Of a stretch of 33,452 nt of DNA, positions 6,719 through 14,934 are shown piece by piece (within the stretch, counting starts at the first letter, position 1; each line of letters begins with the position of its first letter). The stretch lies in NCBI GenBank assembly GCA_015231515.1, contig JADGBM010000024.1, forward strand, positions 1-33,452, given 5' to 3'. The stretch is from Desulfobulbaceae bacterium. GTDB lineage: Bacteria; Desulfobacterota; Desulfobulbia; Desulfobulbales; VMSU01. Made by a program: the position numbers and the translations under genes. Under the pieces are notes generated by a model that was not told the DNA's origin, made no database searches, and saw nothing but the letters and a program-made list of their open reading frames with translations.

Positions 6719-6985
6719 GTGCAACCAAGGGCATCTAAAAATACTGTTGTAGGAGTTTTTAATCACACGTTAAAAATTGCTACAACTGCCCCACCAGTAG
6801 AAGGGAAGGCAAATTCTGAAATTATTGCTTTGCTGGCGAAATTTTTTGAAATACCAAAGAGTACTATTTCGTTAAAAAGTGGTCAGCAAAGCAAAACGAA
6901 ACGATTTGTTCTTCCCGGCCTGTCAGTTGAAGAAGCCGACAGCCTCTTCGCTAAGAAAATCCCGCCACCTAAAAATCGTAAATAA
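6719..6985 (+). CDS. DUF167 (YggU) family protein; true start probably upstream and non-canonical
   Basis: Small alpha/beta protein of the YggU family, function unknown. The hallmark VQPRASKN is followed by TAPPVEGKANSEIIALLAKFF and a basic strand KSGQQSKTKRFVL. The only canonical start in frame is GTG 6719, but it has no Shine-Dalgarno and cuts off the first beta strand. Family-like residues continue upstream without a stop (CIRSADGNLLVDVT, encoded 6677-6718) and the frame is open back to 6641. Candidate real starts are ATT 6680 (AGGG four bases before it) or ATA 6644 (AGAGGA six bases before it), the latter overlapping the divIVA stop as ATAG. The coordinates given are the minimal canonical ones. 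Confidence 0.85.
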   Translation: MQPRASKNTVVGVFNHTLKIATTAPPVEGKANSEIIALLAKFFEIPKSTISLKSGQQSKTKRFVLPGLSVEEADSLFAKKIPPPKNRK

Positions 6986-7000
6986 TGGACAGATATTAGC

Positions 7001-7056
7001 TATTAGCCTTTAGCCCCTTAACCCTTAACCCTTTACCCTTAACCCCTTACCCCTTT
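7001..7056. repeat. Heptameric tandem repeat, CCCTTAA family
   Basis: Eight consecutive 7-bp units fill the gap between the converging DUF167 and Fe-S protein genes. The units are TATTAGC, CTTTAGC, CCCTTAA, CCCTTAA, CCCTTTA, CCCTTAA, CCCCTTA, CCCCTTT. The period is strictly 7 although the units drift. A related array in the opposite orientation lies at 27492-27520, and an AAAGTTA heptamer array at 17155-17175. No hairpin or terminator is apparent. Confidence 0.88.
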
Positions 7057-7060
7057 AGCC

Positions 7061-8056
7061 TCAAACTCCCATTTCATAATAGCGTTTCATGATTTCAGCT
7101 GGTAGTGAGTTGTGCCAGTGACCAGTCGAGACGGCAATCAGCCAGAATAATAAGAATATGGCAATCGTCAAAAATGGAATCAGATACGGTGAAACCTTTT
7201 GAGATGGCCCCACTCTGACGGTCAGGCAGTCCTCCTGAGGGCAAGTGCTGACGCAGTCAAGGCAACCAATGCACTCAAGGCTCCGAACGTGACCACTCTT
7301 GTCGGATACCGAAATCAGCGCAGGGCAGATTTTGTCGCATTTTTTGCAGTCGATACATCTCTTTGAATCACGTTTAACTGCAAAAGGGCTGATACATGCC
7401 AGAATACCCAGCAGCGCACCGTAAGGGCATAGGTATCGACACCAGAAATTCTTAATGACGAAGGAGATCATCAGCAGGAAGATCATGACAGTTGCAGCCA
7501 GTTTCCCAGGAGCAATGAAGAAGTAAAGCATTTTAGCATCAACTGTAATGTTATAGGGTGAGCGTAAAAAACTGTCGATGGAGGCAAGGTTCATCTTGAA
7601 GGCGATGAGATATATAAAAAAGAAGAGCAGTATGTATTTAAGGGAGAGTAGTGGTATGTCGAGAAAAAACGGTAGTTTGAAGATGGTTTTAAACCTAACC
7701 CCGGCCTTTTCTGCAAGGTTGGAGGTGAAACCAACGGGGCATATCCAGCCGCAAAAGCCTTTTCTGACAAGAAGTGCTATTGTTAGAGCTGCAATAAATA
7801 TTGTTAAGCCAGCTGGATGAATTGGGTCATATTGGCCTGTGAACAATAGTCTTTTAAGGCCCAATAGGGCGCTGATAGGTAAAAAGGCCTCGACCGAAGG
7901 GGGCCTTTGGATATAAACAGCAGATTTTCCAATAGCCCACTGGTGAAATTGGAAAAACTGCCACCCACTGTAAAGGCAAAAAACAGTGAACAGCGACTGG
8001 CTTAAGCGCCGGAAGACGATGAGGTGTTCACGAGACAATAGTTTAGTTTTGGGCAT
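7061..8056 (-). CDS. NapH-like membrane protein with two 4Fe-4S clusters
   Basis: 331 residues. Multiple membrane segments (about 20-36, 82-97, 136-153, 175-200, 288-310) carry two cytoplasmic-side CxxxCP motifs, CGWICPVG (102-109) and CRYLCPYG (206-213), as in NapH, NosR and YccM/RdxA-type proteins. Two classical ferredoxin motifs follow: CIDCKKCDKICP (234-245) and CIGCLDCVSTCP (262-273). Such proteins pass electrons between the quinone pool or membrane donors and a periplasmic or membrane partner. No nap, nos or cco genes are nearby. Instead its ATG (8054-8056) lies 14 bp inside the end of the MMPL transporter gene, which implies coupled translation with a lipid-type transporter. The electron acceptor is unknown. 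Confidence 0.85.
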   Translation of the reverse strand: MPKTKLLSREHLIVFRRLSQSLFTVFCLYSGWQFFQFHQWAIGKSAVYIQRPPSVEAFLPISALLGLKRLLFTGQYDPIHPAGLTIFIAALTIALLVRKGFCGWICPVGFTSNLAEKAGVRFKTIFKLPFFLDIPLLSLKYILLFFFIYLIAFKMNLASIDSFLRSPYNITVDAKMLYFFIAPGKLAATVMIFLLMISFVIKNFWCRYLCPYGALLGILACISPFAVKRDSKRCIDCKKCDKICPALISVSDKSGHVRSLECIGCLDCVSTCPQEDCLTVRVGPSQKVSPYLIPFLTIAIFLLFWLIAVSTGHWHNSLPAEIMKRYYEMGV

Positions 8057-10598
8057 TGGCTGATTTTGTAGGGGCCTCAGGACCTAATGGCTTGAAAACA
8101 ATGATGAGCTGGGGTAGCAGAGTTAAAGCGGCCAACAGGGCGGCCAACATGGCGAAGCCGGTGAAAAGACCAAAGTAAATTGTAGGGATGAATTTTGAAA
8201 GAACAAGGATTGAAAAGCCTATTATGATGGTCAGTGATGTATAATACATAGCTTTCCCAATACTTGCATGACAGCGATGCATTGTCGCCCGATAGTTTCG
8301 ATCCTTTTTGAACTCTTTCATGAACCGATGTATGTAGTGAATTGTGTCGTCAACTGCAATCCCGATGGAAATGGCTGCAATTGTAATTGTCATCATGTCC
8401 AGTGGAATACCAAAAAAACCCATAGCTCCTAAGACCATGGCTGCCGGAAGCAAGTTTGGCAGGATAGCTATCAGGGCAATTGACAGGGATCTGAAAAGCA
8501 CCATGAACATGAGCATAATTCCGCAAAACACAACCCCAATCGTCATAATCTGAGATTTGAATAAACTTTGCAGCATATTGTTATAGAGAACCACCATGTT
8601 GGTAAAGTGAATGGAATCAGCCGGATAGTTCATCTCATCAACAAGAAACAGATCTATTTTCTCAATCAATTTCTGGCGGGAAAGGTTGATATCTGACTCC
8701 ATAATTCGAGTGGCAAAACGAACTTGGTTGTTGGCGATGGAAAGGTAGGGGGTAACAAGAACATCTTTGATGGTCTGCGGTATTTTATCGTACATAAGCG
8801 ATAACTCGTAATCATCAAGAGCAATGCTGTTATTAAGAGATGTGGCAATTTTTGTCAAAGTAGCAATTGAAGAAACTTTGCCTGTTTCGGGTAACTGCTC
8901 GATAAAGGAGTGGATTCGTTCAAGTTTTTCGAGCTTATAGGCGGTAAACCAGTATCTCTCTGAAGAGAAATTTGATTCGTCCACCAGGAGTTCATCGCCG
9001 CCAAAATCGGCTGAAAGCAGATCATCGTCCAGCAGATCACCAGCTGACGAATCGCTTGTTGAAGCTGCTTTGCTGGTTGAAGTAGCGACCTGTTCGTCAG
9101 GGAGATCGATAATTATGTCAAGCGGTGTCGTTCCTCCTAGCTTTTCATCAATAAGTTTCATGCCCTGGTAGATCTCTGTTGATTCGCTGAAGTAGTCGAT
9201 AAATCTATTTTCAACTTTTAGCTTGGTAACCCCGTAGGCGCTTAACATAATTAATAAAAATGAAATAAATAGAACCAGACCACCTCTCTTGTCGGTAAAT
9301 ACAGCAAATATCGAGGTGAAAGGGGCCTGTTTACTTTCTTGCAGAGCAATGTGTTCACGGTTGATTAGCATTGCAGCAGCAGGAAAAATTAGAAATGTAA
9401 GGATAAAAGAGGCGATTAAGCCAATTGTCATCATGAGCCCAAAGTCCATTACCGGGCGAATAGAACTGACAAGTAAGGAAACAAAAGCCACAATTGTGGT
9501 CAAAACAGTGTAGAGGCAGGGCATGAATTTTAAACGGACCGTTTCGAGAACAAGAAACTCTTGACTTTCATCAGGGTAGATAGTGCATAATTCACGATAG
9601 CGCACTATCAGGTGAATGGTGAGTGACATCGTGAAGATGAGCATTAAGGAAATAAAATTAGAGGAGATAACCGTTACCCGCCAATCCATCAATCCAAGTA
9701 AGCCAATCATGGTAGTGGCGGCGGTAAAACAACATACCATAGGTAGAAAGACCCATCGTTTTTGTTTGAAAATTATGGTTAAGGTTAGAATAAGGAAGAT
9801 AAAAACTCCGACGCTGAAGATGATAATGTCGCTTTGCACATATGAGATCATGTCGGCAATGATCATTGGAACACCGCCCAAAAACAGATTGGCAGTGTTG
9901 CGGTGCAACTCCATTGTAGAGCGAATCTCATCGACCAAAGCGTTCTGCTCGCCGGTGAGGTGTGTGGCGTAGGCTCTGTACTCTTCTGAAACGACAGCCA
10001 ATCTTGAGCGTTCATCGGCTGTGATAGTCTTGTTGAACTCTTTCTCTCGTAAATTTGTTCGTTCGGTCAGGAGGTCACGTAATTTATGGTTAATAGGCAG
10101 GTTGATTAGAATGGCAGTTGTTTGACCGTCAGGGCTTACAAGTTGTTCGCTGTAAATTGGATTTGTTTTAAACTCCTGCTTGGCAAGCTGGAAATCAACA
10201 TCCGGAGTTAAAAGGGTCCTGACCTGGTTCGATAAATCGCTGAAAGTGACTTTAGGACTAAAAAGCAGCGGGACATTTAAGATACTGACAATGGAATCCA
10301 CACCACGGAGAGCTGAAAGCTCGTCGGAGAGTTTTTTTAAATCATCAATGACCGGCTTGCTGAAAAGGTCAGCGGCAGGGGTGTAGGTCAGAACCAGATA
10401 ATCGTTTGTTCCGTACTGGTTGTAGATTTTACGAAAATAACGCAGGGCATCATCATTTTCGAGAACCAGAGAGTCAGCCGAGGCGTCAAGTTTGAATTTT
10501 CCTGAATGGAATGAAAAAAATGCCACTGCCAGAAAAACAAAAAAAATCGAAAAACCTGGATGTTTAATGATGGTTCGTTTATATATTTTTATAAACAT
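8043..10598 (-). CDS. MMPL/RND-superfamily transporter (HpnN-like)
   Basis: 851 residues with the duplicated RND layout: TM1 (about 14-31), a large periplasmic loop, a five-TM bundle (about 258-411), TM7 (about 440-455), a second loop and a second five-TM bundle (about 684-836). The proton-relay signature GIAVDDTIHYIHRF is at 746-759; the equivalent first-half site (SLTIHLIVRYRE, 325-336) lacks the Asp pair. Relatives carry lipids or hopanoids from the inner membrane outward. The second periplasmic loop contains an acidic Ser/Asp-rich insert (about 505-546). Divergently transcribed MlaA-SPOR and MlaC genes suggest glycerophospholipid or related lipid trafficking (inference); no mlaFED genes are in the window. 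The gene overlaps the NapH-like gene by 14 bp. Confidence 0.88.
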   Translation of the reverse strand: MFIKIYKRTIIKHPGFSIFFVFLAVAFFSFHSGKFKLDASADSLVLENDDALRYFRKIYNQYGTNDYLVLTYTPAADLFSKPVIDDLKKLSDELSALRGVDSIVSILNVPLLFSPKVTFSDLSNQVRTLLTPDVDFQLAKQEFKTNPIYSEQLVSPDGQTTAILINLPINHKLRDLLTERTNLREKEFNKTITADERSRLAVVSEEYRAYATHLTGEQNALVDEIRSTMELHRNTANLFLGGVPMIIADMISYVQSDIIIFSVGVFIFLILTLTIIFKQKRWVFLPMVCCFTAATTMIGLLGLMDWRVTVISSNFISLMLIFTMSLTIHLIVRYRELCTIYPDESQEFLVLETVRLKFMPCLYTVLTTIVAFVSLLVSSIRPVMDFGLMMTIGLIASFILTFLIFPAAAMLINREHIALQESKQAPFTSIFAVFTDKRGGLVLFISFLLIMLSAYGVTKLKVENRFIDYFSESTEIYQGMKLIDEKLGGTTPLDIIIDLPDEQVATSTSKAASTSDSSAGDLLDDDLLSADFGGDELLVDESNFSSERYWFTAYKLEKLERIHSFIEQLPETGKVSSIATLTKIATSLNNSIALDDYELSLMYDKIPQTIKDVLVTPYLSIANNQVRFATRIMESDINLSRQKLIEKIDLFLVDEMNYPADSIHFTNMVVLYNNMLQSLFKSQIMTIGVVFCGIMLMFMVLFRSLSIALIAILPNLLPAAMVLGAMGFFGIPLDMMTITIAAISIGIAVDDTIHYIHRFMKEFKKDRNYRATMHRCHASIGKAMYYTSLTIIIGFSILVLSKFIPTIYFGLFTGFAMLAALLAALTLLPQLIIVFKPLGPEAPTKSANAQN

Positions 10599-10803
10599 TA
10601 TTTTGTCTTATTAAGGGTATTTTTTGGGTAGATGATACGTTTATCGACACGGTAAATACAACACAGTTTGAATAATAATTCAATGATACATTAAATTATA
10701 AAAAGCATATTTGGGATTATTTTTTGTCTTGTAAAATTAATTTAAATTATCGACAATGCTTCTAGCAGCTATTTTATCACTTTAATAAAAGGAGCCTGAT
10801 GTC
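10599..10803. promoter_or_regulatory. Divergent intergenic region between MMPL and mlaA genes
   Basis: 205 bp, very AT-rich, and the only place from which both divergent transcription units can start. I see no unambiguous -35/-10 pair and no long palindrome. On the plus strand a GGAG Shine-Dalgarno (10791-10794) is followed by a two-codon ORF ATG TCT TGA (10799-10807), whose stop overlaps the TTG start of mlaA. Confidence 0.5.
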
Positions 10804-11889
10804 TTGAGGAGAAAAATCACATCGTATCTCGTAGTATTCCTTTTGTTTGCGCAGCCTTTAGTCGCGATGCAGGCCGATGATGACTTGCTTGGTGAGTACG
10901 AAACTGACACTGAAATTTCTGAAATCAGTGACCCGATAGAGCCGCTCAACAGGATTTTTTTTCAGTTTAACGATACGCTATACACGTATCTCTTAAACCC
11001 TGTGGCTGAAACATATGCTGCAATATTGCCTGAAGATATTCGCGGGTGTATTGGCAATGCCTTTAACAATATCGTGGCACCTATTCGAATTGTAAATAAC
11101 CTTTTGCAGGGAAAAGTTGCACAGTCAGGGACTGAGCTGCTGCGTTTTGTGATAAACACCACTGCTGGCGCTGGAGGTTTAGCTGATCCGGCTAAAGAGG
11201 TGTTTAACTTGCACACTTCAGATGAAGATTTTGGCCAGACTCTGGGAAAATACGGTTTTGGTGAAGGTATCTATATCTGTTGGCCTATCTTTGGCCCCTC
11301 TAATATCCGTGATACAATCGGCAAGGTTGGTGACTCCTTTCTCAACCCTCTAAGCTATATTTATTTTGATGACTCAACAAATGGCTTAGCTGTCCATGCC
11401 GGGAAACGTATTAACCAGACCTCACTTGTGCTCGGGGAGTACGAACAGTTTATTGAATCATCCTTTGACCCGTATATTGCGATGCGGCAGTTTTTTACTG
11501 ATAGTCGTCGGAGTCAGATCCTCGATAAGCATATTGATACATCTTCGTATCCGAAACAAAGCAGTTTTTTTAATTTTGATGAAGCTGATAAATCCGCGAT
11601 GTTAAGCGCTTTAACGGATGGTCCTGTGAAAGCAGTTAGCCCGGAGCGATTAAAATCAAAAAAATACTTTATCCAGGTGGGGGTTTTTACCGACATTGAA
11701 AATGGTGACGCCTTATCCCAAAGACTGCTGTCAATCGATAGAGAGCCTGTTGTTGTAGAATATATTCGAGAGGATTATACGTTTTATGGTATTCAGGTCA
11801 TCGGCGGCAATGAGTTTGTCTTGGCAAAAAATGCGGAGCAGGAACTAATTAAGGCCGGTTTTCAAGAGACTCTAGTACTCAGTAGATAA
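10804..11889 (+). CDS. mlaA: MlaA (VacJ) family protein fused to a SPOR domain
   Basis: 361 residues. A signal peptide (1-22, RRKITSYLVVFLLFAQPLVA) has no lipobox Cys, unlike the classical MlaA lipoprotein. The MlaA domain (about 43-245) begins with the hallmark DPIEPLNRIFFQFND, and later has TAGAGGLADPA and DFGQTLGKYGFGEGIY followed by FGPSNIRD. MlaA forms a donut in the outer membrane that removes phospholipid from the outer leaflet and hands it to MlaC, the next gene. A SPOR domain (about 286-360; KKYFIQVGVFTDIENGDALSQ) is added at the C terminus. SPOR domains bind denuded peptidoglycan, so this protein may be tied to the wall or septum (inference). The TTG start is nine bases after GGAG; an ATG five bases upstream is out of frame and stops after two codons. 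Confidence 0.9.
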   Translation: MRRKITSYLVVFLLFAQPLVAMQADDDLLGEYETDTEISEISDPIEPLNRIFFQFNDTLYTYLLNPVAETYAAILPEDIRGCIGNAFNNIVAPIRIVNNLLQGKVAQSGTELLRFVINTTAGAGGLADPAKEVFNLHTSDEDFGQTLGKYGFGEGIYICWPIFGPSNIRDTIGKVGDSFLNPLSYIYFDDSTNGLAVHAGKRINQTSLVLGEYEQFIESSFDPYIAMRQFFTDSRRSQILDKHIDTSSYPKQSSFFNFDEADKSAMLSALTDGPVKAVSPERLKSKKYFIQVGVFTDIENGDALSQRLLSIDREPVVVEYIREDYTFYGIQVIGGNEFVLAKNAEQELIKAGFQETLVLSR

Positions 11890-11920
11890 TTTAAAAATTG
11901 AGCATACAAGGTATTTAAGC

Positions 11921-12550
11921 ATGGTATCGTTTCACATTAAGAGAAAGATAGTGGCATCATGCACTGTTTTTTTATTTGTTCTGGGTTTTGTTGCAGTGGT
12001 CTCTGCCGAAGCGAGTTTGCCTATTGACTCAATAAAAATGACAGTAGAAAGAATAATCCAGGTTGTAACTGATCAGGCTCTAAAAGGTGAGGAAAACTCA
12101 GAAAAGCGTAAGAACACGATACTGCAGTTGGTGGATCAGCGTTTCAATTTCCAACTGATGTCGAGACTGGCACTCGGCGATAACTGGGACAGTCTGACAG
12201 TGGAGGAGCAGGCAGGTTTTGTTGTCTTGTTCTCTGATCTTTTAAAGAAAACCTATATCAGAAGGATTGAGTCGTATTCCGATGAGAAAGTCGTTTTTTC
12301 AAAAGAGAATGTCAAAGATAATTTGGCGTTGGTCTATAGTCAATTTGTGAAGGATACGAGTGAAATTTCGATAATTTATAAATTGAAAAAAGAAGGCGAC
12401 GAGTGGCTGGTTTTTGATGTTGTAATCGAGGGCGCCAGCGTTATAAAACAGTACAGACGCCAATTTTCAGAAATAATTACTGCCGAAAAATTTGACGGTT
12501 TGATGTTACGTCTTCAAGAAAAAATTAAATTGTCAAACGCTTCACACTGA
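11921..12550 (+). CDS. mlaC: MlaC / Ttg2D family periplasmic lipid-binding protein
   Basis: 209 residues with a Sec signal peptide (about 1-29, cleavage near VSAEA). It then follows the MlaC fold pattern: IIQVVTDQALKG, RKNTILQLVDQRFNFQLMSRLALGDNWDSL (the usual F.f..ma...LG..W....), EEQAGFVVLFSDLLKKTYIRRIESY, and the C-terminal DEWLVFDVVIEGASVIKQYRRQFSEII. MlaC shuttles phospholipid across the periplasm between MlaA and an inner-membrane transporter. Here the nearest inner-membrane candidate is the divergent MMPL protein, not an MlaFEDB ABC transporter. HpnM of hopanoid clusters belongs to the same family, so a hopanoid role is an alternative. It follows mlaA by 31 bp, likely one operon. Confidence 0.9.
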   Translation: MVSFHIKRKIVASCTVFLFVLGFVAVVSAEASLPIDSIKMTVERIIQVVTDQALKGEENSEKRKNTILQLVDQRFNFQLMSRLALGDNWDSLTVEEQAGFVVLFSDLLKKTYIRRIESYSDEKVVFSKENVKDNLALVYSQFVKDTSEISIIYKLKKEGDEWLVFDVVIEGASVIKQYRRQFSEIITAEKFDGLMLRLQEKIKLSNASH

Positions 12551-12862: not shown

Positions 12863-13381
12863 GTGAAAATTTCATTTGATGAGATACCTGAAGAAGGGTT
12901 GAACTTCGACATTAATGACCGGTTCTGGCTTACCAATACAGACTTCAAGGTACTAAGTGACCCTTTAGCACGTATCACCTTAAAGAAAATCGAATCACGC
13001 GTCGTTATGAGAGGTTTTATTACATGTTCGGTTGAGTTGGAATGTGATCGTTGCCTTTCCAGTTTTGAATCTAAACTTGAGTCGGATTTTACACTTTTTT
13101 TCGACTGGGTAGGGGTTGGGAAAAACCTACATAATGAAGATGAGCATCAACTGACAGATGCTGAAATGGATATTGTTGAGCTTGAAGATCCGGAAATTGA
13201 TCTATTTGAAACGCTTCAACAACAGTATTATCTGATGCTGCCGGTAAAGACTATCTGTAACGAAAAATGCAAAGGGCTCTGTTCTCACTGCGGCATAGAT
13301 AAAAACCAGAGTTTGTGTTCATGTTCTGAGTTATATAAGGATAGCCCTTTTTCTGAACTTACTAAAATAAAAATTCATTAG
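12863..13381 (+). CDS. yceD: DUF177 (YceD) family protein
   Basis: 172 residues. The DUF177 pattern is visible: VVMRGFITCSVELECDRCLSSFESKLESDF (strand, CxxC, strand), acidic middle EMDIVELEDPEIDLFETLQQQYYLMLPVKTIC, and the C-terminal cysteine cluster CNEKCKGLCSHCGIDKNQSLCSC. YceD is found before rpmF and plsX in very many bacteria, and its plant and E. coli relatives are linked to 23S rRNA processing. The start is GTG 12863 with only a weak purine stretch (TTGGAA) upstream. It is separated from rpmF by an attenuator-like hairpin. Confidence 0.92.
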   Translation: MKISFDEIPEEGLNFDINDRFWLTNTDFKVLSDPLARITLKKIESRVVMRGFITCSVELECDRCLSSFESKLESDFTLFFDWVGVGKNLHNEDEHQLTDAEMDIVELEDPEIDLFETLQQQYYLMLPVKTICNEKCKGLCSHCGIDKNQSLCSCSELYKDSPFSELTKIKIH

Positions 13382-13384
13382 TCG

Positions 13385-13415
13385 TACCGTCCATATTGTG
13401 ATGACGGTATTTTTT
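13385..13415 (+). terminator. Hairpin with T-run between yceD and rpmF (terminator or attenuator)
   Basis: Perfect 7-bp stem TACCGTC (13385-13391) / GACGGTA (13403-13409), 11-nt loop, followed at once by six T (13410-13415). It lies four bases after the yceD stop. It could partly terminate the upstream transcript and so set the yceD:rpmF ratio, since no other strong promoter is visible before rpmF. Confidence 0.7.
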
Positions 13416-13419
13416 ATCC

Positions 13420-13433
13420 GTTGAACGTTCAAC
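13420..13433. promoter_or_regulatory. 14-bp perfect palindrome upstream of rpmF
   Basis: GTTGAACGTTCAAC is its own reverse complement and is followed by another ACGTT. It lies 31 bp before the rpmF ATG, just after the hairpin T-run. It may be an operator for the rpmF-plsX-fab transcription unit, or a remnant of heptamer-type intergenic repeats; the sequence alone cannot tell. Confidence 0.4.
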
Positions 13434-13464
13434 GTTATTTACTATAATTTGTAGAGGCAATCTG

Positions 13465-13653
13465 ATGGCATTACCAAAAAGAAGACATTCTCACGCTCGG
13501 ACCCGATTACGACGATCACATGACGCATTAGTAGCACCAAATGTTTCAAATTGTTCTGAGTGTGGCGAGCCCAAACAACCTCATCGCCTTTGTGCCGGCT
13601 GTGGTACCTATAAGGGTAGAACAGTTGTTAAATTTGATGACGAAATCGAATAG
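13465..13653 (+). CDS. rpmF: Ribosomal protein bL32
   Basis: 62-residue large-subunit protein. It has the N-terminal ALPKRRHSHARTRLRRSHDAL, typical of L32 (usually AVPKrr.S), and a zinc-binding CSECGEPKQPHRLCAGCG (C-x2-C...C-x2-C), so it is the zinc-containing (C+) form. The end GTYKGRTVV is also canonical. The ATG at 13465 follows AGAGGCAATCTG. Its position between yceD and plsX is the classic arrangement; 213 bp of non-coding DNA follow before plsX. Confidence 0.98.
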   Translation: MALPKRRHSHARTRLRRSHDALVAPNVSNCSECGEPKQPHRLCAGCGTYKGRTVVKFDDEIE

Positions 13654-13866
13654 AAAAACTTGGTATGGCACTTACTTTCGTCAGCATTGATATGATGCGC
13701 GCTGGCATAGACCGCAAAAGTCGATCTAGTAGTCCTAATAAGAGCAATAGCCTACATTCATCGTTGACGCCTGTTTTGCACGTGAATTATCAAATAAAAT
13801 CTGACTCCATGGCGTGTTACCATGAGTTGTCATGAAGATCCCGGCCTGCCGGATTAGGGGAGTGAC

Positions 13867-14934
13867 GTGCAGATAGCTTTAGATGTAATGGGTGGTGATC
13901 GCGAACCTGATGAAGTCATTTCCGGTGCTGTTGACGCAGTCTGCAAGTATGGTTATCAGGTCGTTTTGCTTGGCGATAAAAAGTGTATTGATACATCACT
14001 GACAAAACATCTCGCTGATTATAAAAAGTGTGCTGCTCAAAAAGAACATACTTCTGCCTTTGATGTTCATGACAGAATTTCGATTGTCCATACAACACAG
14101 GTAGTCGAAATGGATGAATCTCCGCTTGATGCGATTCGCAAAAAGAAGGATTCTTCCATAGTTGTTGCCTTTGAACAACTTAAAGATAAAAAGGTTGATG
14201 CTGTCGTGAGTGCCGGCAATTCAGGGGCCACTTTAGCTGCCGCTGTAAAAACACTTGGTCGGCTTAAAGGTATTTCCAGGCCGGGTATAGCAGGTATATT
14301 TCCAACGCTCAAAAAACCACTGGTTATTATGGATGTTGGTGCCAATGTGGATTGCAGGCCCCAGCATCTGCACCAGTTTGCAGTGATGGCAACCGCATTT
14401 TCCAGGGTATTGTTTGATATTGATGAGCCGAGGGTTGGTCTCTTGAGTATTGGCGAAGAGGGTGGCAAGGGCAATGCCCTGGTAAAAAAAACCCACGAAC
14501 TGTTGACTGCAAGTAACCTCAATTACATCGGTAACGTCGAGGGCAGAGATATTTTTCAAGGTGATGTCGATGTTATGGTTTGTGATGGTTTTGTCGGAAA
14601 TGTTTGTCTGAAGCTGAGTGAAGGTCTTGCTGATGCGATGGTATCCATGCTAAGGGAAGAGTTTTCTAAAAACCTTATATCCAAGGTGGGTTATCTTCTT
14701 ACCAAGAAAGCCTACGCGAATCTGAAAAAACGAACTGATTATGCTGAGTATGGCGGAGCACCACTTCTGGGGTTTAATGGTACCGCCATTATCTGCCATG
14801 GCCGCTCAAACTCGCGAGCTATAATGAATGCCATTAGAGTCGCAGCAGAAATGGTACGTAACAATATGAATGACCATATCTGCAATCTCCTCGCTAAAGA
14901 TCAGGTTTTGCCCGAAAATATAGAAACGGCCTGA
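13867..14934 (+). CDS. plsX: Phosphate acyltransferase PlsX
   Basis: Converts acyl-ACP and phosphate to acyl-phosphate, the first step feeding PlsY in glycerophospholipid synthesis; peripheral membrane enzyme. 355 residues with the family signatures IALDVMGGDREPDEVISGAV at the N terminus, VDAVVSAGNSGATLAAA, RPGIAGIFPT, MDVGANVDCRP, LLSIGEEGGKGN, GRDIFQGDVDVMVCDGFVGNVCLK and YGGAPLLG. The start is GTG 13867, preceded by a strong AGGGGAG. fabH follows after 10 bp, so the two are co-transcribed, as in most bacteria. Confidence 0.97.
   Translation: MQIALDVMGGDREPDEVISGAVDAVCKYGYQVVLLGDKKCIDTSLTKHLADYKKCAAQKEHTSAFDVHDRISIVHTTQVVEMDESPLDAIRKKKDSSIVVAFEQLKDKKVDAVVSAGNSGATLAAAVKTLGRLKGISRPGIAGIFPTLKKPLVIMDVGANVDCRPQHLHQFAVMATAFSRVLFDIDEPRVGLLSIGEEGGKGNALVKKTHELLTASNLNYIGNVEGRDIFQGDVDVMVCDGFVGNVCLKLSEGLADAMVSMLREEFSKNLISKVGYLLTKKAYANLKKRTDYAEYGGAPLLGFNGTAIICHGRSNSRAIMNAIRVAAEMVRNNMNDHICNLLAKDQVLPENIETA

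Follow-up and report, generated by a model that had tools for sequence, protein, structure and literature searches.

The MMPL gene and the divergently oriented mlaA-mlaC pair described here probably specify an Mla-type lipid shuttle in which a proton-driven RND transporter acts as the engine instead of the MlaFED ABC transporter, a reading based on comparative sequence analysis. The window (the complete 33,452-nucleotide stretch of Desulfobulbaceae DNA that was analyzed) corresponds to contig 24 of a 3.4-Mb draft genome that is 95% complete. Substitution of an RND pump for MlaFED, as had been proposed in a preliminary description of this DNA, is well supported by the loss of the MlaC-linked ABC transporter in the sister genus g4, its breakage in the window's genome, and its absence from the relative G044, and also by the use of the same genomic slot, by neighbor switching on gene trees, and by linkage in several phyla.

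Organization of the locus

The features of the locus and its immediate surroundings are as follows.

6719-6985, + strand: DUF167 (YggU) gene (Pfam DUF167), which adjoins the NapH-like gene in genus g3 also
7061-8056, - strand: NapH/NosR-type membrane 4Fe-4S protein, 331 aa (Pfam Fer4_5, twice, and Fer4_10)
8043-10598, - strand: MMPL/RND (HAE3-like) transporter, 851 aa (Pfam MMPL, 66.8 bits, in two stretches)
10599-10803, no strand: divergent MMPL-mlaA intergenic region, 205 bp, a probable promoter region judging solely from gene orientation
10804-11889, + strand: MlaA with C-terminal SPOR, 361 aa, TTG start (Pfam MlaA, 222.5 bits)
11921-12550, + strand: MlaC periplasmic lipid-binding carrier, 209 aa (Pfam MlaC, 140.7 bits)
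12863-13381, + strand: yceD (Pfam and synteny)
13465-13653, + strand: rpmF (Pfam and synteny)
13867-14934, + strand: plsX (Pfam and synteny)

The positions and families first assigned to the four central genes were borne out by open reading frame positions and Pfam, as were the divergence of MMPL from mlaA-mlaC, with 205 bp separating MMPL and mlaA, and the absence of mlaFED from the window. A promoter scan listed no sigma-70-like site within the 205-bp intergenic region, and its matches across the window were not above those obtained with shuffled sequence. The yceD-rpmF-plsX segment (12863-14934) marks the slot which, in ABC-type relatives, holds mlaE-F-D-A-C.

Homologs of both MlaA and MlaC are encoded in the window, this MlaA being the sole representative identified in the whole genome by profile search. 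Its N terminus is without a lipobox cysteine, and its C-terminal SPOR domain reaches 21.2 bits (Pfam cut-off, 21 bits) only when the C-terminal end is searched alone. The possibility that SPOR represents an RND-linked trait of MlaA was rejected, as ABC-linked MlaA proteins (e.g., that of G097) align through the same C-terminal region. Across the order, the lipobox cysteine is often missing from MlaA regardless of the linked transporter, and several MlaA proteins carry a SPOR or SPOR-like C terminus (10804-11889, L042, L044, L045, and L096 for both observations). The window MlaC scores 86 bits against the NCBIfam HpnM model (cut-off, 160 bits); ABC-linked MlaC proteins of the same order reach similar scores, and an HpnM-like score was for this reason dismissed as a sign of RND partnership.

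Decay and loss of the MlaC-linked ABC transporter

Profile searches of the window's genome returned one MlaA (window), two MlaC (window and C77), two MlaE (both on C1), and three MlaD proteins. The MlaC-linked mlaE-F-D(-C) operon is present in two copies, both of which are broken. The copy on C1 retains MlaE residues 1 to 204 (of 264), MlaF residues 152 to 186 and 225 to 408 (of 413), and MlaD residues 1 to 122 (of 156), with MlaE residue 204 joined to, and at most a few bases away from, residue 152 of MlaF and a second gap running from MlaF residue 186 to 225. The copy on C77 retains MlaF residues 209 to 410 (of 413) together with complete MlaD and MlaC. Neither MlaF remnant (C1 or C77) has a Walker A motif or LSGG signature left. 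The broken operon type is intact in G027, where it is arranged as mlaE - mlaF-GGDEF - mlaD - mlaC (L088). The MlaF protein of G027 (L088:6173-7414, 413 aa) is an ABC ATPase carrying, as a C-terminal fusion, a GGDEF-like domain that apparently has no GG[DE]EF motif, and remnants of this fusion occur at L009:5396-6052 and L010:6944-7510; the fusion is possibly a regulatory version of MlaF.

In the sister genus g4, represented by G003, G005, G007, and G009 (completeness of 93, 95, 93, and 73%, respectively), the MMPL gene is divergent from mlaA-mlaC in all four genomes, and the NapH-like gene lies behind MMPL in G003, G005, and G007, the contig of G009 stopping inside MMPL. The MMPL gene of G007 is divided between contig C62, which carries the NapH-like gene, and contig C205, which carries mlaA-mlaC. 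No match to MlaE (PF02405) and no single-domain MlaD was obtained in any of the four genomes, the MlaD matches, where there were any, being PqiB-like multi-MCE proteins of 380 to 581 aa. Were such a gene present, the probability of its being missed in all four genomes through incompleteness would be approximately 7e-5, assuming independence. The RND protein is, therefore, the only visible inner membrane partner for MlaC in g4. Intact MlaC-linked MlaE, MlaF, and MlaD, by which an Mla system is recognized, were thus found neither in the window's genome, where the copies are broken, nor in g4, where MlaE and single-domain MlaD are absent.

A complete mlaFEDB operon elsewhere in the genome, combined with a lack of conservation of the MMPL-NapH pair in relatives, had been named in the preliminary description as evidence that would refute its reading. 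An intact MCE-ABC system is indeed present (C1:65155-68725), but it is of the STAS-MlaE/elongated-MlaD/PqiC type, encoding STAS-MlaE, MlaF, a 320-aa MlaD, and an ABC_trans_aux (PqiC-like) lipoprotein. As this system is intact, it could act in trans, in which case MlaC would still be served by an ABC transporter and MMPL would be a mere neighbor. We consider this quite improbable: the elongated MlaD and the PqiC-like lipoprotein resemble the Mpc (Mla-Pqi chimeric) system of Brucella, which functions without MlaC and MlaA (PMC12436622), and the intact operon appears from its gene content to be akin to systems that operate without MlaC; the same STAS-type system is absent from g4, which nonetheless keeps the RND-mlaA-mlaC arrangement; and the repeated linkage of the RND family to mlaC (see below) would stay unexplained. 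The likeness to Mpc is confined to this operon and does not involve the window genes.

Distribution among 116 relatives

Replacement of the ABC transporter by the RND protein was further assessed among 116 relatives in the order. Of the 24 genomes with an MMPL ortholog, 7 lack MlaE, versus 1 of the 92 without one; this count is regarded as no more than supportive because five of the seven belong to one family and the other two (G047 and G057) are contig-edge artifacts. The latter two were rejected as further MlaE losses, because in both genomes the mla operon is cut by the end of a contig. Linkage to mlaC was observed in 9 of the 24 MMPL-bearing genomes, whereas chance would, on a rough estimate, give approximately 0.4% per genome. 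The suggested co-occurrence of MMPL, MlaA, and MlaC in genomes devoid of the ABC transporter held in g4 (without MlaE in four of four genomes), but many RND-linked genomes retain MlaE, including G027, G041, G042, and some Nitrospinota, so that the RND transporter can also be present alongside the ABC transporter without displacing it. The assemblies of the key genomes are drafts and are fragmented.

Genus g3 (G008, G002, G004, and G006; L082 to L085) uses a distant mlaF-E-D-A-C operon elsewhere in the genome, which sits on very long branches in both the MlaA and the MlaC tree, and the MlaA of G008 bears a lipobox. This operon was perhaps acquired from outside, with MMPL-mlaA-mlaC being lost.

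Transporter exchange at a common genomic site

In most relatives read, the gene order is mlaE-mlaF-mlaD-mlaA-mlaC, followed in G097 and G051 by a cNMP-binding gene and then plsX. The corresponding order in the window and in G027 is MMPL, mlaA-mlaC, yceD, rpmF, and plsX, and that of g4 matches the window through to plsX, but without a called yceD. In G044, MMPL is located on the same strand as mlaA-mlaC, in the yceD/plsX neighborhood. G044 and G051 are both members of family f15 and have this neighborhood in common (51, 54, and 74% identity for MlaA, MlaC, and PlsX, respectively); G044 carries the RND gene, whereas G051 carries mlaE-F-D at the same site. A profile search of the G044 genome identified no MlaE besides the STAS type and no MlaC-linked ABC transporter. 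The G044/G051 contrast represents displacement at one and the same site, distinct from the case in f1. A further variation was apparent in L199 (G054) and L201 (G064), whose ABC-type mla operons have two mlaC genes flanking mlaA.

Trees of MlaC (47 rows) and MlaA (38 rows), in which some long rows (L159 and L131) are doubtfully placed, group by bacterial family and not by partner transporter, so that the same MlaA-MlaC pair has repeatedly changed its neighboring transporter. RND-linked G042 is placed among the ABC-linked f4 sequences (support of 97/80 for MlaA and 100/99 for MlaC), RND-linked G044 nests within f15, and, in the MlaA tree, RND-linked G027 pairs with ABC-linked G036 (f7) with a support of 95/95. 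The MlaA tree needs six partner changes, five of which are forced by well-supported branches alone; the MlaC tree needs seven, of which such branches force only two. Linked and unlinked members are mixed in the MMPL tree, with at least 12 changes, some of the "unlinked" members being located at contig ends.

Linkage of the RND gene to mlaC in other phyla

When a single genome per species was scanned, 456 relatives of MMPL were obtained, of which the best 80 were read. Among these 80 loci, mlaC is located within two genes (≤1.6 kb) of the RND gene in 18 (4 of which represent genomes already in the order survey), derived from Nitrospinota, a "Nitrospirae" MAG, SAR324, Desulfobulbales, and Gammaproteobacteria. 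Five arrangements were counted: MMPL divergent from mlaA-mlaC (Desulfobia and the "Nitrospirae" MAG); mlaA-mlaC-MMPL (SAR324 and RIFOXYD12); MMPL-mlaA-mlaC (G044); mlaC-MMPL and MMPL-mlaC (two Gammaproteobacteria); and MMPL/GHMP kinase/mlaC (nine Nitrospinota). The intervening gene of the linked Nitrospinota loci (L115, L117, L124, L126, and others) belongs to a single cluster and, in the locus tested (L115), encodes a GHMP kinase. A 4-bp overlap of mlaC with the RND gene occurs in SAR324 (L159) and in a Hahellaceae MAG (L151). MlaE was not seen in 8 of the 14 mlaC-linked genomes tested, including SAR324 (4.2 Mb) and the "Nitrospirae" MAG, a proportion which, as genome completeness was not given, is suggestive only. 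Many MMPL orthologs are unlinked to mlaC, above all in Gammaproteobacteria. Alloalcanivorax xenomutans (L174) and Zhongshania antarctica (L176) possess an MMPL ortholog and have no match to MlaE (PF02405).

Properties and potential cargo of the RND protein

Assignment of the 851-aa protein to the MMPL/HAE3-type RND transporters is supported by its Pfam MMPL domains, its structural model, and fold matches in the PDB, the hallmark of the family being DASADSLVLEND. The best NCBIfam model is HAE3 (TIGR00921) at 164 bits, below the cut-off of 352, for which reason the protein appears to belong to a divergent HAE3-like subfamily. The AlphaFold model (pLDDT of 82) has MmpL5/MmpL4/MmpL3, NPC1 relatives, and HpnN as its nearest folds. 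MmpL3/4/5 share the RND fold and provide the best structural matches (TM of approximately 0.66 to 0.68 for MmpL4/5), but they differ in being approximately 12% identical, in handling mycobacterial lipids, and in their partners. Residues D750 and H754 in TM10 are invariant, with H329 located in TM4, and a proton relay in this protein may be anticipated from RND precedent.

Pairing of HpnN (RND) with HpnM (MlaC-like), as reflected in the NCBIfam model names, is a feature of hopanoid loci and offers a close parallel, in that an HAE3-type RND lipid transporter is encoded near an MlaC-family protein. This parallel raises the alternative that the RND protein exports a lipid or hydrophobe other than a glycerophospholipid, borrowing MlaC and MlaA as carrier and outer membrane acceptor. 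HpnN is the best sequence match of the RND protein among solved structures, and HAE3-type RND relatives carry such compounds outward from the inner membrane, namely, hopanoids (HpnN), sterols (BstA), and monoterpenes (AmeD) (PMC6394551, PMC10942540). The NCBIfam HpnN score, however, is 82 bits against a cut-off of 752, the scores for HpnN and HpnM both being far below their cut-offs and ABC-linked MlaC proteins being equally HpnM-like, and no squalene-hopene cyclase (PF13243) match was obtained in the window's genome (G000) or in the g4 genomes. This is, therefore, not the HpnN hopanoid system, and hopanoid transport by the RND protein was ruled out. MlaA, which is present in the window, and MlaC are, furthermore, orthologs of the ABC-linked pair of relatives, and the locus lies beside plsX and fatty acid genes. 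Another nonphospholipid cargo is accordingly rated as unlikely. The BstA/BstB/BstC sterol transporter and the AmeABCD monoterpene exporter likewise combine an MMPL/HAE3-type RND protein with periplasmic and outer membrane partners, but these partners derive from families other than MlaC and MlaA.

Proposed RND-driven lipid shuttle

In the preferred reading, that of an Mla-type shuttle powered by the RND protein, MlaA at the outer membrane would exchange phospholipid with the periplasmic carrier MlaC. The docking site for MlaC would be provided by the periplasmic domains of the RND transporter, which would pass lipid between MlaC and the inner membrane's outer leaflet, using the proton motive force in place of ATP. 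The NapH-like protein would not be part of this shuttle. The reading draws on gene content, on the decay or loss of MlaC-linked ABC genes, on neighbor switching, on recurrent linkage, and on an RND fold like that of lipid transporters; physical contact between MMPL and MlaC, a phospholipid cargo, proton drive, and direction are all features that we infer. Movement from the inner to the outer membrane may be slightly favored, because the RND lipid pumps that serve as precedent are exporters. The proposed shuttle shares with the Mla system (OmpC-MlaA/MlaC/MlaFEDB) orthologous MlaA and MlaC proteins and the operon site of the relatives' mlaE-F-D-A-C; it differs in that the window has the RND gene instead of intact MlaC-linked MlaE/F/D and in that its MlaA has a SPOR domain and no lipobox.

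More tentatively, and at somewhat below an even chance, MMPL proteins of the DASADSLVLEND subfamily may serve as MlaC engines beside or instead of MlaFED in a proton-driven "Mla-RND" pathway that extends across phyla, MlaEFD then not being indispensable. According to a broad Mla survey, MlaEFD is the ancestral core, and MlaA, MlaB, and MlaC were added to it later (PMC10665443); lineages possessing MlaA and MlaC but neither MlaE nor MlaD represent the converse of that view. If correct, the MlaA-MlaC shuttle could be driven by the proton motive force instead of ATP, and the exchange of ABC for RND transporters, proposed here in a lineage of sulfur cycle bacteria, would provide a natural setting in which to test the direction of Mla transport, which is disputed. 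No paper joining MlaA/MlaC with an MMPL/RND partner was found in the literature searched, which covered a minority of subscription journals.

The NapH-like protein

The cluster cysteines C102, C106, C206, and C210 of the NapH-like protein, together with two 4Fe-4S sets, are conserved in 18 orthologs. Its score against the NCBIfam NapH model is 83 bits (cut-off, 234), and it is thus designated only as a NapH/NosR-type protein. A role for it in redox-linked lipid transport or modification had been considered, as had coupled synthesis with MMPL by virtue of a 14-bp overlap. The overlap (8043-8056) is real where the NapH-like gene starts at the annotated ATG (8056), but an in-frame TTG 18 nt downstream (8038), close to where the g4 orthologs start, would abolish it, and it is not conserved in relatives, where gaps of 10 bp (G003), 17 bp (G005), and 76 bp (G007) separate the two genes. 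Conservation of the gene pair itself, the absence of which was to weigh against the original reading, is evident, but only in genera g1 and g4, in which cotranscription is possible.

The co-directional adjacency to MMPL in four genomes of g1 and g4, overlapping in the window, might be taken to indicate that the NapH-like protein is a functional partner in lipid transport, either powering or modifying it, as might a weak co-occurrence (18 of 24 genomes with versus 49 of 92 without an MMPL ortholog; one-sided p = 0.04, uncorrected for relatedness). Distribution and synteny nevertheless contradict redox-linked lipid transport, making such a partnership highly improbable. NapH-like orthologs are encoded by 67 of the 116 relatives, 49 of which are without an MMPL ortholog, and one persists in G089 even though MlaA, MlaC, and MlaE are absent there. 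Outside the window's family, 13 genomes have both genes, in no case side by side, and only L104 (= G005) among the best 80 of 456 loci shows the pair. In g3 (G008), the NapH-like gene is retained between DUF167 and yceD as in the window, and MMPL, mlaA, and mlaC are missing from that site. Because the NapH-like gene is common without MMPL, unlinked to it outside the family, and kept at the g3 site, its adjacency most simply appears to be an accident of gene order in the window's family rather than the mark of a component. Between DUF167 and the NapH-like gene of the window, positions 6990-7060 contain a low-complexity CCCTTA-like run which resembles a degenerate short repeat.
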